A DNA stretch of 64,000 bases, taken from contig NZ_CP123897.1 of the NCBI RefSeq assembly GCF_029910655.1, positions 4,019,547 through 4,083,546 on the forward strand. Direction: 5' to 3'. Under the pieces are notes generated by a model. The model ran no database searches and was not told the origin of the DNA. It was given only the letters and a program-made list of their open reading frames with translations. This DNA is from Methylomonas sp. UP202. Its GTDB lineage: Bacteria > Pseudomonadota > Gammaproteobacteria > Methylococcales > Methylomonadaceae. Position numbers and translations under genes: made by a program. The first letter of the stretch is position 1; every line of letters begins with the position of its first letter. Shown here one piece after another: positions 5,498-13,843 of the stretch.

Positions 5498-5941
5498 ATG
5501 AACACCCATTTATTCGACGACAGCCGTATCCGCTGGCAAACCCTGGCCGGCTTCGACCACTTGCACTATTTCATTCTGCACATCGATAGCGAAGCCCAGA
5601 TTATCGACGTGCTCTTTAAATTCGCCGCCGGCCAACAAATCGTGTTGCATCGCCACAAGGCGCCGAACCACATTTTCGTCATCCAAGGCGAGCACCGCCT
5701 ATATCACCCCGACGGCAGCTTGAAGGAAATCCGGCCGACCGGCCGCTACACCGTCAGCCCCGCCAGCGACGAGCCGCACCGGGAAGGCGGCGGCGACATC
5801 GACGTGGTACTGTTGTTCAGCATACGCGGCTGCGGCGTGCTCTACGAAATCCTCGACGACAACGCCAACGTGATCGGCACGCTGGCAATGGCGGACTTCA
5901 TCGCTTTGCACAATGCGCAACCAGCGTTAACCGATGGATAA
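5498..5941 (+). CDS. Cupin-fold protein (ChrR-like)
   Basis: A 147-residue single-domain cupin. Two histidines in the LHRHKAPNHIFVIQGEH segment and a later EPHREGG match the metal-binding pattern of cupin motifs 1 and 2. The remainder is mostly predicted beta strands. Such ChrR-type cupins bind zinc or another metal and act as sensors, isomerases or dioxygenases. No anti-sigma partner domain or neighbouring sigma factor is visible, so a regulatory role is not supported. It lies 120 bases upstream of the phosphatase gene on the same strand and may be co-transcribed with it. Confidence 0.7.
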   Translation: MNTHLFDDSRIRWQTLAGFDHLHYFILHIDSEAQIIDVLFKFAAGQQIVLHRHKAPNHIFVIQGEHRLYHPDGSLKEIRPTGRYTVSPASDEPHREGGGDIDVVLLFSIRGCGVLYEILDDNANVIGTLAMADFIALHNAQPALTDG

Positions 5942-6061
5942 GCACCCTGCCACCAGCTCCCGAGGCCGGGCGATCTTCGCGCGGCCATTACGATTCGGCA
6001 CTGCTCAAGCGGCCTTCGTGCTAGACTCGCGCGAATTTCCAACACCGCCGAGATTAACGCC

Positions 6062-6616
6062 ATGGCCGGAACGCGGACCAGCCACACCCACCCGCTGCAA
6101 ATTGCCGAAGTGCGCGCCAGCCCGTCGCACGGACGGATCGGCATCACCTTTTGCCCCGGCAAGCACGACCGCTTTGCCCACACCGGCGTCTGGGAGCGCG
6201 ATCTCGGCGTCGATTTGGACGCCATCGCCGCCTGGGGCGCCAAACTGATATTAACCCTGGTGGAACCGGCGGAACTGACCGCGCTCAAGGTTCCGCAACT
6301 CGGCCACGAAATTCGTAGACGCGGCATCGAGTGGCTGCATTTGCCGATCGCCGACTATTCGGTTCCCACCCACGCTTTCGAGCAACAATGGCTAACCCAA
6401 GGCGCCGACATCCGTCGGCGCTTACGCAAGGGCGAAGACTTGCTGGTACATTGCAAGGGTGGCCTGGGCCGGGCCGGCATGATCGCCGCGCGGCTACTGG
6501 TTGAACTAGGCATGAACCCGGAAGCGGCGATCCATGCGGTGCGCCACGCGCGCAAGGGCGCCATCGAAACCCCGGCGCAACTGGCGCTGGTCCGCCGCAC
6601 CCAGCCGATCCCATAA
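6062..6616 (+). CDS. CDKN3-like Cys-based protein phosphatase
   Basis: A 184-residue dual-specificity/tyrosine phosphatase-type enzyme. The P-loop HCKGGLGRAG places the nucleophile at Cys131 and the phosphate-binding Arg at 137. The general acid is probably Asp98 in PIADYSVP. The region around IAAWGAKLILTLVEP resembles the KAP/CDKN3 branch, which bacterial annotations call cyclin-dependent kinase inhibitor 3 family. The stop is followed 9 bases later by the kinase-like gene, so the pair is almost certainly one transcript. The natural substrate is unknown; the adjacent kinase-like product is the obvious candidate partner, which is inference from position only. Confidence 0.85.
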   Translation: MAGTRTSHTHPLQIAEVRASPSHGRIGITFCPGKHDRFAHTGVWERDLGVDLDAIAAWGAKLILTLVEPAELTALKVPQLGHEIRRRGIEWLHLPIADYSVPTHAFEQQWLTQGADIRRRLRKGEDLLVHCKGGLGRAGMIAARLLVELGMNPEAAIHAVRHARKGAIETPAQLALVRRTQPIP

Positions 6617-6625
6617 CCCGCCGAC

Positions 6626-7306
6626 ATGACTACCCTCGATACCGCCAAACTTTCACGGGTAGGCGGACAACTGGGCAGCAATCCGGCCGGCGTTTATCAA
6701 GACGGTAACGGCGGCCGACGCTATTACGTGAAGACGCTAGAATCGGCCGCCCACGCCCGCAACGAATGGCTCGCCGCCCAACTCTATCAACTGGCCGGCG
6801 CGCCGACCCTACGCTACGTGACTACTTCGGCACCGGACCAGATAGCGACCGAATGGATCGTACTGGAAAAGAAATGCCTGGCCCATTTCACCGACAGCGA
6901 GCGCGAACAAGCGCGGCAATGGTTCGGCGTGCACGCCTGGACCGCCAACTGGGACGCCGCCGGCTTCAACGGCGATAACCAAGGCGTTGCCGGCGGACAA
7001 GTCCTGACGCTGGATGTCGGCGGCGCCCTGGCCTTCCGCGCCCAGGGCGATCCCAAGGGCAAGGCGTTCGGTATCCGCGTTGACGAGCTGGACGTCTTGC
7101 GCCGCGACGACGCCAACCCTCACGCCGTCAAGCTGTTCGCCGCGATGACGCCTGAACAAATCGAACAAGCCATCCTAGTCGTCGCTCGCATTCCGGACGA
7201 TGAGATTCGTCAGGTCGTCTTAGCCAGCGGCGGTTCGCCAGCGCTAGCCGACAAGATGCTCGCCCGCAAAGCCGATATGGCTCGGCGTATAGCCCGGACT
7301 GAATAA
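6626..7306 (+). CDS. Kinase-like protein of unknown function, partner of the phosphatase
   Basis: A 226-residue protein that I cannot assign to a named family. Its layout resembles a compact kinase fold. It has a glycine-rich N-terminal loop (residues 12-30), a lysine in YYVK (36) and a glutamate in ARNEWLAAQLY (47). A catalytic-loop-like NWDAAGFNGDNQ follows (Asp110, Asn115, Asp117, Asn118), then a DFG-like LTLDVGGAL (Asp130). A helical tail completes it. That reading is inference from motif order, by analogy with HipA-like and PI3/4-kinase-like enzymes. It follows the phosphatase gene by 9 bases. It may modify protein, lipid or nucleotide, or be a non-catalytic binding fold. Confidence 0.6.
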   Translation: MTTLDTAKLSRVGGQLGSNPAGVYQDGNGGRRYYVKTLESAAHARNEWLAAQLYQLAGAPTLRYVTTSAPDQIATEWIVLEKKCLAHFTDSEREQARQWFGVHAWTANWDAAGFNGDNQGVAGGQVLTLDVGGALAFRAQGDPKGKAFGIRVDELDVLRRDDANPHAVKLFAAMTPEQIEQAILVVARIPDDEIRQVVLASGGSPALADKMLARKADMARRIARTE

Positions 7307-10887: not shown

Positions 10888-11493
10888 TCAGCTTGGGGTC
10901 GGTAACCGCCCACCAACTCCTCCTCGACTCATCGTAACAACTCTAACGCGTAGAAAAAATCTCCGCTCGAATAAGTTGGCCAGCATGGCGTTCGGAGAGA
11001 TTACAAACCGCGCGAGTCGCAAACGGTGCGGCGGTTGTTATTTTCCAAGACCCCGAGTTTGGCAATGCCGTGCGCCGGTTGTGTTTGCGGGAACGGCTAA
11101 ATCAACAGCGATTTGCCAGGTTTTTATCGCCGATGCGGATGCGTTCAGGCAAAGGGCGGGAACTAGTGTTTCGGGCTTTAGACGCTTTAGTTCCCTTCGG
11201 CTCCGCTCAGGGAACGACCGGCTCCGCTCAGGGAACGACCGGCTCCGCTCAGGGAGTGATCGACTTCATTCGGGGAACAATCGCCTCCTCTCGGGGAACA
11301 ACCTGCGCGCTCTCCGAACGGAGTCGAGGCAAACGTCCTGCGTTCTCGGAAGCGAATCGAGGGGGGATCGCACCGGTCGGTTTAATCATTGCAAGCCCGA
11401 GTCAATACTATCGGGGCGATACGCGTTAAAAACTTACCCTGGCGGTAATTCCCGCCCGCTAACGAAACAAAATCCAATCGCTAAATAGGCCTG
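10888..11493. other. Gene-free stretch containing a 21-bp tandem array
   Basis: No convincing gene. Two overlapping plus-strand frames (10976-11488 and 11070-11429) are open only because the repeat period is a multiple of three. The segment begins at the junction with the AT-rich remnant. Near 10950-10972 it holds AAAAATCTCCGCTCGAATAA, which has a near copy at about 13368-13389 on the far side of the duplicated genes. Confidence 0.5.
11198..11302. repeat. Five 21-bp tandem repeats (array 1)
   Basis: Five consecutive 21-bp units start at 11198, 11219, 11240, 11261 and 11282. The first two read CGGCTCCGCTCAGGGAACGA plus C; the third differs only at its 3' end; the last two are degenerate but keep the register and the GGGGAACAA ending. 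There are no spacers, so it is not a CRISPR. A 21-bp period corresponds to two helical turns of B-DNA. Confidence 0.9.
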
Positions 11494-12228
11494 CTACCCA
11501 ACCCGCCCGCGCCGTTTTAGACCCAACAATCCCATCAGGCCACTACCCATCAACCAAACAGCCCCCGGTATCGGCACGGCCGACAATCGTCCGGGACTCA
11601 CCGCCCATACGTAGTGTTGATAAGTCTTCCGGTGGTTGGCCTGACTACTGTAATAGGCTTCAAAATACCACGCGCTACCGGGGGAAGCCGCATTCTCGGT
11701 ACCTGACCAGTACGAAGAGGCTTGCTCGTGGTCGAAGCTATTGGTATTGGGAATGGAATTAGACGCCGAACCGTCCAATTCGCCGTAAACCAATTGGCCC
11801 AATTCGTTGCCGGCGCTGCCGTCGTATCCGTCGATGGCATTACTGGTTGGCAAGCGCCATTGCGAGCTGCCGCCATAGTTGACGCGATTCAGTAAGCCAA
11901 CGAAAGCTTGCGCGCCAAACCAGTTGGCTCTACCGTCCGACGAAAAATCGGTGGTTTTCACGGTGTAAGAACCGGTGTAACCGTCGAAGCTGTTGGGCGT
12001 GTCGCTAACGGTAGGGCTAGCGGCGATAATGGCTTGGATGACGTTTCGGAAACCGTAAGTGCTTTCCAGCGTAGCCAACAGATTGGCGTCTTGCGTCCAG
12101 GTCACGTTGCCGACGCTGCTGTAGACCAAGCCAATGTCATCGGCACCGGTAAAGCTGATTAGCGTGGCATTGGCGTTGAACGCGGCGGCGCCGAGCAGAA
12201 CGCCGAAGGTAAGTAGCCTGTGTGTCAT
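11494..12228 (-). CDS. Secreted DUF1566-like protein with PEP-CTERM-like anchor (copy 1)
   Basis: A 244-residue exported protein. It has an N-terminal signal peptide (LLTFGVLLGAAAFNANA) and a central DUF1566/Lcl-like domain with the signature QWRLPTSNAI, then GNELGQLVY and YWSGTE. It ends in a VPIPGAVWLMGSGLMGL transmembrane segment followed by LKRRGR. That tail is the VPxPGA variant of the PEP-CTERM sorting signal common in methanotrophs and handled by exosortase systems. No exosortase gene lies in the window. The next gene is a paralogue sharing the N-terminal GLVYSSVGNVTWTQDANL and the core, so the pair arose by tandem duplication. The ligand is unknown. Confidence 0.85.
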   Translation of the reverse strand: MTHRLLTFGVLLGAAAFNANATLISFTGADDIGLVYSSVGNVTWTQDANLLATLESTYGFRNVIQAIIAASPTVSDTPNSFDGYTGSYTVKTTDFSSDGRANWFGAQAFVGLLNRVNYGGSSQWRLPTSNAIDGYDGSAGNELGQLVYGELDGSASNSIPNTNSFDHEQASSYWSGTENAASPGSAWYFEAYYSSQANHRKTYQHYVWAVSPGRLSAVPIPGAVWLMGSGLMGLLGLKRRGRVG

Positions 12229-12384: not shown

Positions 12385-13116
12385 TCATTTTCTCCGCAAA
12401 CACAGCAATCCCATCAGCCCGGTTCCAAACAACGCTAATGCGCCCGGTATCGGCACCGCAGCCACTTGCCCTGGGCTAACGAGCCAAACCAGATGCTCGC
12501 GACCCTTTTCATCGTAGCCCTGGGCACCTTTTCGAGCATCAAAGCCCCACGCCGCGGCCTGGTTGGAAGTGAACTCAATACCAGACCAGTAGGCTACCGG
12601 CGATTCGTTGTCGAAGGTTGGGGTGTTGGGAATAAACTTGCCGGCGGTACCGTTCAATTCGCTATAAAACAATTGGCCTAGTTCGTTACCGGCGGTGCCG
12701 TTAAAACCGACAATGGCATTGCTGGTCGGCAAGCGCCATTGGTGGCTGCCGCCGTAGTCGATGCTGTTTAAGTAATTGGCGAAGGCGATAGCCCCCCACC
12801 AACTTAGGAAGCCTGAAGAGGGAATGTTGACATTGAAACTGCCGAAATCGCTCGCCGTCAAGGTTACTTGCGGCCCGGATGAGGCGTAATAATTCGTTGT
12901 AGGCGTCAACGCGATAACCCGGCTGATTAGCGAATGGTCGGCATTGGACAGGGTTTTGAACAAATTGGCGTCTTGCGTCCAGGTCACGTTGCCGACGCTA
13001 CTGTAGACCAAGCCAGCGCCGTCGGCGCCGGTATAACTGGTCAAGCTGGCGTGGGCGTTTAACGTGGCGCCGCCGAGTAACAATCCCAAGGCAACTAAAG
13101 TTTTACGGGTATTCAT
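12385..13116 (-). CDS. Secreted DUF1566-like protein with PEP-CTERM-like anchor (copy 2)
   Basis: A 243-residue paralogue of the preceding gene with the same order of parts: signal peptide (LGLLLGGATLNAHA), GLVYSSVGNVTWTQDANL block, a QWRLPTSNAIVGFNGTAGNE core, YWSGIE, and the C-terminal anchor VPIPGALALFGTGLMG ending in LRRK. The regions between the shared blocks have diverged strongly, for example the NYYASSGPQVTLTASDF segment, so the duplication is not recent or the variable part is under selection. A GGAG-like ribosome site lies just upstream of the ATG. The spacing to copy 1 (156 bases) contains no recognisable terminator, so both may be co-transcribed. Confidence 0.85.
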   Translation of the reverse strand: MNTRKTLVALGLLLGGATLNAHASLTSYTGADGAGLVYSSVGNVTWTQDANLFKTLSNADHSLISRVIALTPTTNYYASSGPQVTLTASDFGSFNVNIPSSGFLSWWGAIAFANYLNSIDYGGSHQWRLPTSNAIVGFNGTAGNELGQLFYSELNGTAGKFIPNTPTFDNESPVAYWSGIEFTSNQAAAWGFDARKGAQGYDEKGREHLVWLVSPGQVAAVPIPGALALFGTGLMGLLCLRRK

Positions 13117-13639: not shown

Positions 13640-13843
13640 GCAGTCACGGAATCGTGGAAACACGTCACGGAACGTCGGAAGCACGTCACTGAGGGATGGA
13701 AACACGACGCGGAACCTTGGAAACACATCACTGAAGGCGAATAGGACGTCACGGAATGCTGGAAGCGCATCACGGAAGGCTGAAAACACGTCACTGGAAC
13801 GTGGAAGGACGCGTTTCCAACATAAAAACACGGCACGGAACGG
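13640..13843. repeat. Degenerate 21-bp tandem array (array 2), nearly ten units
   Basis: Units of exactly 21 bp begin at 13640, 13661, 13682, 13703, 13724, 13745, 13766, 13787 and 13808, with a partial tenth at 13829. The approximate consensus is CACGTCACGGAANGCTGGAA plus one A/G. The sequence drifts while the length does not change, so the period is conserved better than the bases. Unrelated in sequence to array 1, which has the same period. No spacers. Confidence 0.9.

Follow-up and report, generated by a model that had tools for sequence, protein, structure and literature searches.

Which process is served by a phosphatase and a kinase-like protein that are encoded side by side in Methylomonas sp. 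UP202? The two genes lie in a 64,000-nucleotide stretch, here called the window (NCBI RefSeq assembly GCF_029910655.1, contig NZ_CP123897.1, positions 4,019,547 to 4,083,546 of the forward strand). We found that they form a conserved pair and that this pair tracks DraT, more sharply than it tracks nifH, an association that is new here. DraT adds ADP-ribose to dinitrogenase reductase (NifH), stopping nitrogen fixation, and DraG removes it; together they are the classic bacterial example of reversible ADP-ribosylation. We consider it probable that the kinase and phosphatase act as a module in the DraT/DraG circuit, whatever their substrate.

Conservation of the pair and its association with DraT

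The ATG of the kinase-like gene begins 9 bases after the stop codon of the phosphatase gene, and re-checking of the open reading frames confirmed the tight spacing described in a first-pass annotation made from the window's sequence. A search of genome contigs with the kinase protein alone as query, which reaches close relatives only, returned 27 loci. By record names these are mostly from Alpha-, Beta-, and Gammaproteobacteria, with one metagenome-assembled genome labelled Desulfovibrionales; the nearest named contig is from M. koyamae (97% identical in the kinase protein). At all 27 loci the gene immediately upstream of the kinase is the phosphatase, although it is cut by a contig end at one (L003) and the kinase frame is interrupted at another (L028). 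At two of them (L011 and L017), and at an additional Rhodobacter plasmid locus (L055), phosphatase and kinase are a single open frame of 405-412 residues. Among 237 Methylomonadaceae genomes, an intact kinase occurs in 20, and an orthologous phosphatase in exactly the same ones (counting G129, whose phosphatase runs off the end of a contig; G103 has two copies of the pair). Given the constant upstream position of the phosphatase and this joint presence in the same family genomes, the pairing is not due to chance. The first-pass annotation had proposed conserved gene order as a check on its reading, and order and co-occurrence are indeed retained across genomes.

The same annotation included a third gene, a cupin-like open reading frame 120 bases upstream of the phosphatase on the same strand, as the sensor of a cupin, phosphatase, and kinase module. 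Among 50 loci, the cupin adjoins the pair only in the Methylomonas sp. UP202 genome (L001) and in one genome of the same species (L002, L029). This lack of conservation leaves the sensor role unsupported and refutes membership of the cupin in a conserved module; a three-part module of this kind is hardly credible.

The distribution of the pair was compared with that of DraT (PF07357) and nifH (TIGR01287). Of the 237 Methylomonadaceae genomes, 61 have DraT, 119 have nifH above cut-off, and 20 carry the intact pair, all of them positive for both markers (pair versus DraT, Fisher 1.1e-13, with the caveat that this and the following tests ignore shared ancestry). When only nifH-positive genomes of the family are considered, the pair occurs in 20 of 56 with DraT versus none of 63 without it (Fisher 3.2e-8). 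Within the genus of the window the corresponding figures are 19/26 and 0/5 (Fisher 0.005). The family of Amphritea shows the same association: 14 of its 116 genomes have DraT and six have the pair, all six being DraT-positive (Fisher 1e-6). In an even sample of the class (369 genomes, 19 with DraT), four genomes match the kinase profile. Three of these matches are full-length and all three genomes are DraT-positive (Fisher 1.2e-4), namely the window's own genome, G387, and G502, the latter two from one family; the fourth, G620, has a partial match in a longer frame, lacks DraT, and is not counted among the three.

Of the genomes behind the 27 contig loci, 25 of 26 have DraT and 26 of 26 have nifH above cut-off (L026 was outside the DraT test). 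With every carrier genome counted once, there are 42 (20 + 18 + 1 + 3, after removal of overlaps: the family set shares 8 genomes with the 26, which also include G502, G247, G251, and G260), and 41 of them have DraT. The nifH figures exclude G387, G668, G669, and G673, and the Rhodobacter plasmid locus is outside the 42. By genome names the carriers span Alpha-, Beta-, and Gammaproteobacteria. Moreover, at L017 and at the Rhodobacter plasmid locus the fused gene and draG-draT are convergent neighbors (tail to tail). Neither gene of the pair is itself draT or draG. The draB gene of Azospirillum is NifO-like according to PMC5249018 and therefore is not this pair.

Two further genomes of the family were not counted among the 20 intact pairs. 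One (G174) encodes a phage-type protein with MuF and ADP-ribosyltransferase (ART) domains. The other (G105, locus L049), a DraT-positive genome of the window's genus, retains a remnant of both the phosphatase and the kinase, an apparent case of loss of the pair.

The predicted enzymes

The phosphatase is classified by Pfam as a CDKN3-like dual-specificity/rhodanese-type Cys-phosphatase, with matches to the PTP-SAK, Tc-R-P, and CDKN3 models (PF22784, 2.7e-12; PF22785, 1.4e-9; PF05706, 3.3e-8), all above cut-off. The best match in the PDB for a model of the fused protein from L017 is KAP/CDKN3 (1fpz, E 2e-9). The features from which the first-pass annotation had recognized a CDKN3-like phosphatase, the P-loop with Cys131 and Arg137 and the candidate acid Asp98, are invariant in an alignment of 27 sequences (Table 1; this alignment and that of the kinase, of equal size, each include the window's protein), so that family, fold, and residues all bear this assignment out. 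The protein is presumably an active enzyme. It has the HCX5R P-loop, the aspartate, the fold, and the Pfam assignment in common with CDKN3/KAP-like and PTP-SAK rhodanese-type phosphatases, but differs from them in its TFCPGK and GA(I/V)ET motifs and in having a kinase partner.

The 226-residue protein matched no family above cut-off in Pfam, none in NCBIfam, PHROGs, or PADLOC, and none by sequence search of the PDB. The HipA_C model (PF07804) did not match it, and a phage relative (L151) scored 25.7 bits, below the cut-off of 30.5. An AlphaFold2 model based on the 27 sequences (predicted local distance difference test, pLDDT, 85.6; predicted template-modelling score, pTM, 0.85) nevertheless has a kinase-like fold. 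The best Foldseek match in the PDB is CtkA (3akl, E 3.7e-6, template-modelling score 0.57 on the query), followed by HipT (8ezr, 1.3e-4), HipA (4pu3, 1.2e-3), and many ordinary kinases. For the fused protein of L017 (pLDDT 92.5), KAP/CDKN3 and other phosphatases are the best PDB matches, with CtkA and RIOK1 lower; as pTM is only 0.71, the arrangement of its domains is unsure. We conclude that the 226-residue protein is predicted to be an atypical kinase-like protein with a CtkA/HipT/HipA-like fold, in agreement with the kinase reading of the first-pass annotation. Neither outcome that the annotation had named as refuting, a model lacking such a fold or no conserved co-occurrence with the phosphatase, was obtained.

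Residues expected of a kinase are also conserved. K36, E47, N108, D110, N118, and D130 are invariant in the 27 bacterial sequences and have invariant counterparts in an alignment of 26 phage-type proteins (described below), in which the N-W-D and D-N of the candidate catalytic loop do not vary. From the earlier list of kinase-like residues, K36, E47, D110, N118, and D130 were invariant and D117 was conserved in at least 90% of sequences, while N115 varies. These residues would provide the lysine, glutamate, catalytic-loop, and metal-binding functions listed in Table 1, and the kinase may be active.

Table 1. Coordinates of the gene pair, its candidate functional residues, and other features of the window.
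Feature	Position	Strand	Remarks
Cupin-like open reading frame	5498-5941	+	same strand as the pair
Phosphatase open reading frame	6062..6616 including stop (coding 6062-6613)	+	184 residues
T29-F-C31-P-G-K34, subfamily motif	6146..6163	+	invariant in 27 aligned sequences
Asp98, candidate general acid	6353..6355	+	invariant in 27 aligned sequences
P-loop H130-C131-KGGLG-R137 (H-C-X5-R)	6449..6472	+	H, C, R invariant in 27 aligned sequences
Kinase-like open reading frame	6626..7306 including stop (coding 6626-7303)	+	226 residues
Lys36, candidate ATP-binding lysine	6731..6733	+	invariant in 27; invariant Lys in same block of phage-type set
Glu47, candidate helix-C glutamate	6764..6766	+	invariant in 27; invariant Glu in phage-type set
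N108-W-D110...D117-N118, candidate catalytic loop	6947..6979	+	N108, W109, D110, N118 invariant; D117 at least 90%
D130-V-G-G, DFG-like metal-binding candidate	7013..7024	+	D130, G132, G133 invariant; D-x-G-G invariant in phage-type set
Tandem repeats of about 21 bases	11197-11303		higher periods 42 and 63 bases
First of two adjacent, similar proteins	11494-12228	-	
Second of two adjacent, similar proteins	12385-13116	-	
Tandem repeats of about 21 bases	13643-13811		higher periods 42 and 63 bases

The relation to HipA and HipT raises the question of whether the two adjacent genes are a HipA-type toxin-antitoxin system in which the phosphatase is the antidote. The kinase shares with HipA, HipT, and CtkA the predicted fold and the candidate catalytic set of Lys, Glu, Asp, Asn, and Asp. 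However, identity over the fold matches is only about 10-14%, the window's protein lacks a HipA_C match, and the gene directly upstream encodes at all 27 loci a phosphatase and not a HipB- or HipS-like partner. Fusion of the two proteins at three loci, and the fact that intact kinase and orthologous phosphatase are never found apart among the 237 family genomes, are likewise at odds with a toxin and its antidote, and we regard this explanation as very improbable.

CtkA and HipA are protein kinases, and another possibility is that the window encodes an ordinary Ser/Thr kinase whose target is a side chain in DraT, DraG, NifH, or a PII-type regulator, with the phosphatase reversing the reaction; the ADP-ribose context described below would then be history and not chemistry. 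The nearest folds, CtkA and HipT/HipA, are in line with this explanation, as is the resemblance of the phosphatase in sequence and fold to KAP/CDKN3 and PRL-like phosphatases, and co-occurrence with DraT fits it equally well. Alone, it leaves unexplained the company of ART and NUDIX domains in which the kinase domain is found, and the occurrence of phosphatase relatives with ADP-ribosylglycohydrolases. We hold it to be possible, but well short of an even chance.

Relatives in ADP-ribose contexts

A search of viral contigs with the kinase gave 128 relatives, of which 80 were kept; all 80 sit within longer open frames of 387-3135 residues, some of which are truncated where the contig ends. The top Foldseek matches of the kinase model in a viral library come from phages, and some of these proteins carry the label ADP-ribosyltransferase or PI3/4-kinase. 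We scanned 35 distinct phage-type proteins containing the kinase domain, from viral contigs, four annotated phage or plasmid loci, or genome loci. ART domains were found in 20, NUDIX domains in 16, and at least one of the two in 30 (E up to 0.001; the ART match of L130 is below the Pfam cut-off, L115 was counted once with L114, and L053 and L115 were scanned within pooled totals only). ART is C-terminal of the kinase domain in all 19 mapped cases, and NUDIX is N-terminal of it in all 15, lying within 50 residues in 11. In single-sequence searches, ART or NUDIX was detected in 49 of 80 kinase-domain open reading frames versus 9 of 138 other long frames on the same contigs, a comparison that is only indicative because the kinase-domain frames are much longer (median 1522 versus 487 residues), kinase-domain proteins themselves supplied the queries, and the contigs include near-duplicates.

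In a phylogenetic tree rooted at the midpoint, in which bootstrap values had not settled, 26 standalone kinases group into a single clade (100/100) that is nested among 71 phage-type domains. Left out of the tree were L002, L003, and L028 (the locus with the interrupted kinase frame), phage domains shorter than 190 residues, and exact duplicates, so that 71 of 85 phage-type domains were kept.

Three viral contigs (L117, L119, and L135) encode 512-residue proteins with little beyond a NUDIX and a kinase domain (Pfam scan of L117 and L135), which makes them compact candidates for biochemistry. Two others (L174 and L175) combine a 2'-5' RNA ligase-like (2H) domain, the kinase domain, and an ADP-ribosyltransferase in one chain, with NUDIX in addition in L175, and L122 (4182-6599) encodes a single protein with NUDIX, the kinase domain, and topoisomerase IB.

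Relatives of the phosphatase likewise occur in ADP-ribose contexts. Outside the pair, its five best plasmid relatives are 47-55% identical, and four of the five (the exception is from Thauera) lie in or beside ADP-ribosylglycohydrolase genes. Three of these four were examined (L208, L210, and L211) and are in fusion or operon with the ADP-ribosylglycohydrolase; the fourth is known from annotation alone. The TFCPGK and GA(I/V)ET motifs are common to the window's phosphatase and the plasmid relatives, of which three of the four aligned are ADP-ribosylglycohydrolase-linked, and T, C, P, G, and K of the first motif are also invariant in these four relatives and in the Rhodobacter fusion.

Both contexts have precedents. 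In the neighborhoods of host ADP-ribosylglycohydrolases described in PMC9503650 (section 3.8), a phosphatase, most commonly of the rhodanese-phosphatase superfamily, is coupled in a little over 55%. The fused and operonic relatives above resemble these host systems, whereas the window's pair has a kinase in place of an adjacent ADP-ribosylglycohydrolase, WYL, or NUDIX regulator. No ADP-ribosylglycohydrolase was found beside the pair, where one side is occupied by the cupin and a methyltransferase and the open reading frame on the other side was not searched. The passages of PMC9503650 that mention kinases do not describe this kinase. Phage polyvalent and MuF ART proteins (PMC5512222, PMC9503650) are similar in that phage MuF, portal, NUDIX, or ART proteins contain the same kinase-domain family, but they are large proteins and not a two-gene unit.

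These relationships could mean that the pair is a defence module countering ADP-ribosyltransferase/kinase proteins injected by phages, as has been proposed (PMC9503650, section 3.8) for host ADP-ribosylglycohydrolase systems. The nesting of the standalone kinase clade among phage domains (under midpoint rooting) would fit, and the ADP-ribosylglycohydrolase-fused phosphatase relative at L211 lies beside WYL and PD-(D/E)XK genes. Restriction of the pair to DraT-positive genomes, however, is not predicted by a defence role, PADLOC gave no match, and the orthologues are well conserved, with mean column identities of 61% (kinase) and 76% (phosphatase). In addition, the surroundings of the pair in the window resemble housekeeping genes, judged by eye. 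We therefore consider a defence function improbable.

Elsewhere in the window, two adjacent and similar proteins are encoded on the reverse strand (Table 1), with C-terminal tails that resemble PEP-CTERM sorting signals. Two arrays of tandem repeats also occur in this region.

A possible reversible module in nitrogenase control

With a predicted kinase fold and a gene order that is conserved, sometimes to the point of fusion, the writer/eraser interpretation of the first-pass annotation is reasonable once the cupin sensor is removed from it. The core observation of that annotation stands; what it missed are the tie to DraT and nitrogenase and the link to ADP-ribose enzymes. Putting these together, we infer that the two enzymes oppose each other and act in DraT/DraG control. 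Kinase and phosphatase would function as a single reversible module linked to the switch by which ADP-ribosylation controls nitrogenase: the CtkA/HipA-like kinase would add a phosphate somewhere in the DraT/DraG circuit and the phosphatase would take it off again, so that the switched-off state could be maintained or ended without dependence on DraG. The module may have arisen when a kinase domain captured from phage was joined to a phosphatase of the kind linked to ADP-ribosylglycohydrolase.

The substrate can be narrowed only tentatively. It is possible, if rather doubtful, that the phosphate is placed on the ADP-ribosyl group, giving a phospho-ADP-ribosyl-NifH from which DraG could not remove the modification; phosphorylation of DraT, DraG, or NifH at a side chain is an equally tentative choice. 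A still more speculative scenario, which we think unlikely as a whole, extends the first of these. The kinase would phosphorylate protein-attached ADP-ribose; phages would pair it with ADP-ribosyltransferases to block host ADP-ribosylglycohydrolases; hosts would counter with an ADP-ribosylglycohydrolase-fused phosphatase; and diazotrophs would have captured the kinase domain once, joined it to the phosphatase, and used the two to lock and unlock the ADP-ribose placed by DraT on NifH.

A number of observations weigh against a role in DraT/DraG control or against its ADP-ribose chemistry, beginning with the shared ancestry that the Fisher tests ignore. In Methylomonadaceae, 41 of the 61 DraT-positive genomes (two thirds) lack the intact pair, and DraT/DraG therefore works without it. 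One carrier, a metagenome-assembled genome (G244), has no DraT match; misbinning or transfer is possible there, as the pair is on a 5.4-kb contig and its kinase falls inside a mainly gammaproteobacterial branch of the tree. At 26 of 28 loci probed, draG, draT, and nifH do not occur within the flanks (up to 6 kb, some shorter), and in the window's genome DraT (C1:1654632) and nifH (C1:984911) are megabases from the pair (C1:4026172). Neighboring genes differ between loci by eye, and ten neighbors compared with Pfam had no common family, giving no conserved third gene. Control by NifA and sigma-54 was rejected, as the 250 bases upstream of 27 phosphatase genes and of the window's contain no conserved -24/-12 or TGT-N10-ACA site; isolated look-alikes occur only in L012, L023, and L025. 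The phosphatase is also found without the kinase, as weaker profile matches in 14 further Methylomonadaceae genomes and as relatives in 8 of 28 genomes in the family of the genome with locus L019. Most of the 68 plasmid phosphatase records are more distant (mainly about 30% identity), and among 30 listed of the 68 most are annotated as phosphatase only and not as ADP-ribosylglycohydrolase. On the phage side, five of the 35 proteins (L054, L128, L143, L151, and L186) have neither ART nor NUDIX (the gene two downstream of L054 is annotated as an ADP-ribosyltransferase), ART starts at most 100 residues from the kinase domain in only 8 of 19 mapped cases, and phage MuF-type proteins may often have ART domains in any case.

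The scarcity of linkage to draG, draT, and nifH and the two thirds of DraT-positive family genomes without the pair would suit an alternative in which the pair serves some other trait of DraT-prone diazotrophs, such as redox, NAD, or cofactor metabolism, and leaves DraT/DraG untouched. Such an indirect association does not account for a link to DraT that is sharper than that to nifH among nifH-positive genomes, nor for its recurrence in another family and across Alpha-, Beta-, and Gammaproteobacteria, and we think it unlikely. A direct role of the kinase and phosphatase in the DraT/DraG circuit is the explanation that we favor, as the simplest one for these observations.

In the open PubMed Central literature, among the matches listed and judged by title and the start of the abstract, we found no kinase or phosphatase acting with DraT/DraG and no kinase for protein-bound ADP-ribose. 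If a role in the DraT/DraG circuit is true, a pair that follows DraT through three proteobacterial classes (Alpha-, Beta-, and Gammaproteobacteria) would add a new post-translational layer to the control of nitrogen fixation. The occurrence of one kinase family beside phage ADP-ribosyltransferases and of close phosphatase relatives beside host ADP-ribosylglycohydrolases suggests a possible chemical link between phosphorylation and ADP-ribosylation in bacteria, and, if the more speculative scenario holds, phospho-ADP-ribosylation would be a new reversible protein modification common to phage warfare and nitrogenase control. The idea is testable with a few purified proteins, and its confirmation would place in a named family a kinase domain that none of the searched family libraries recognizes.

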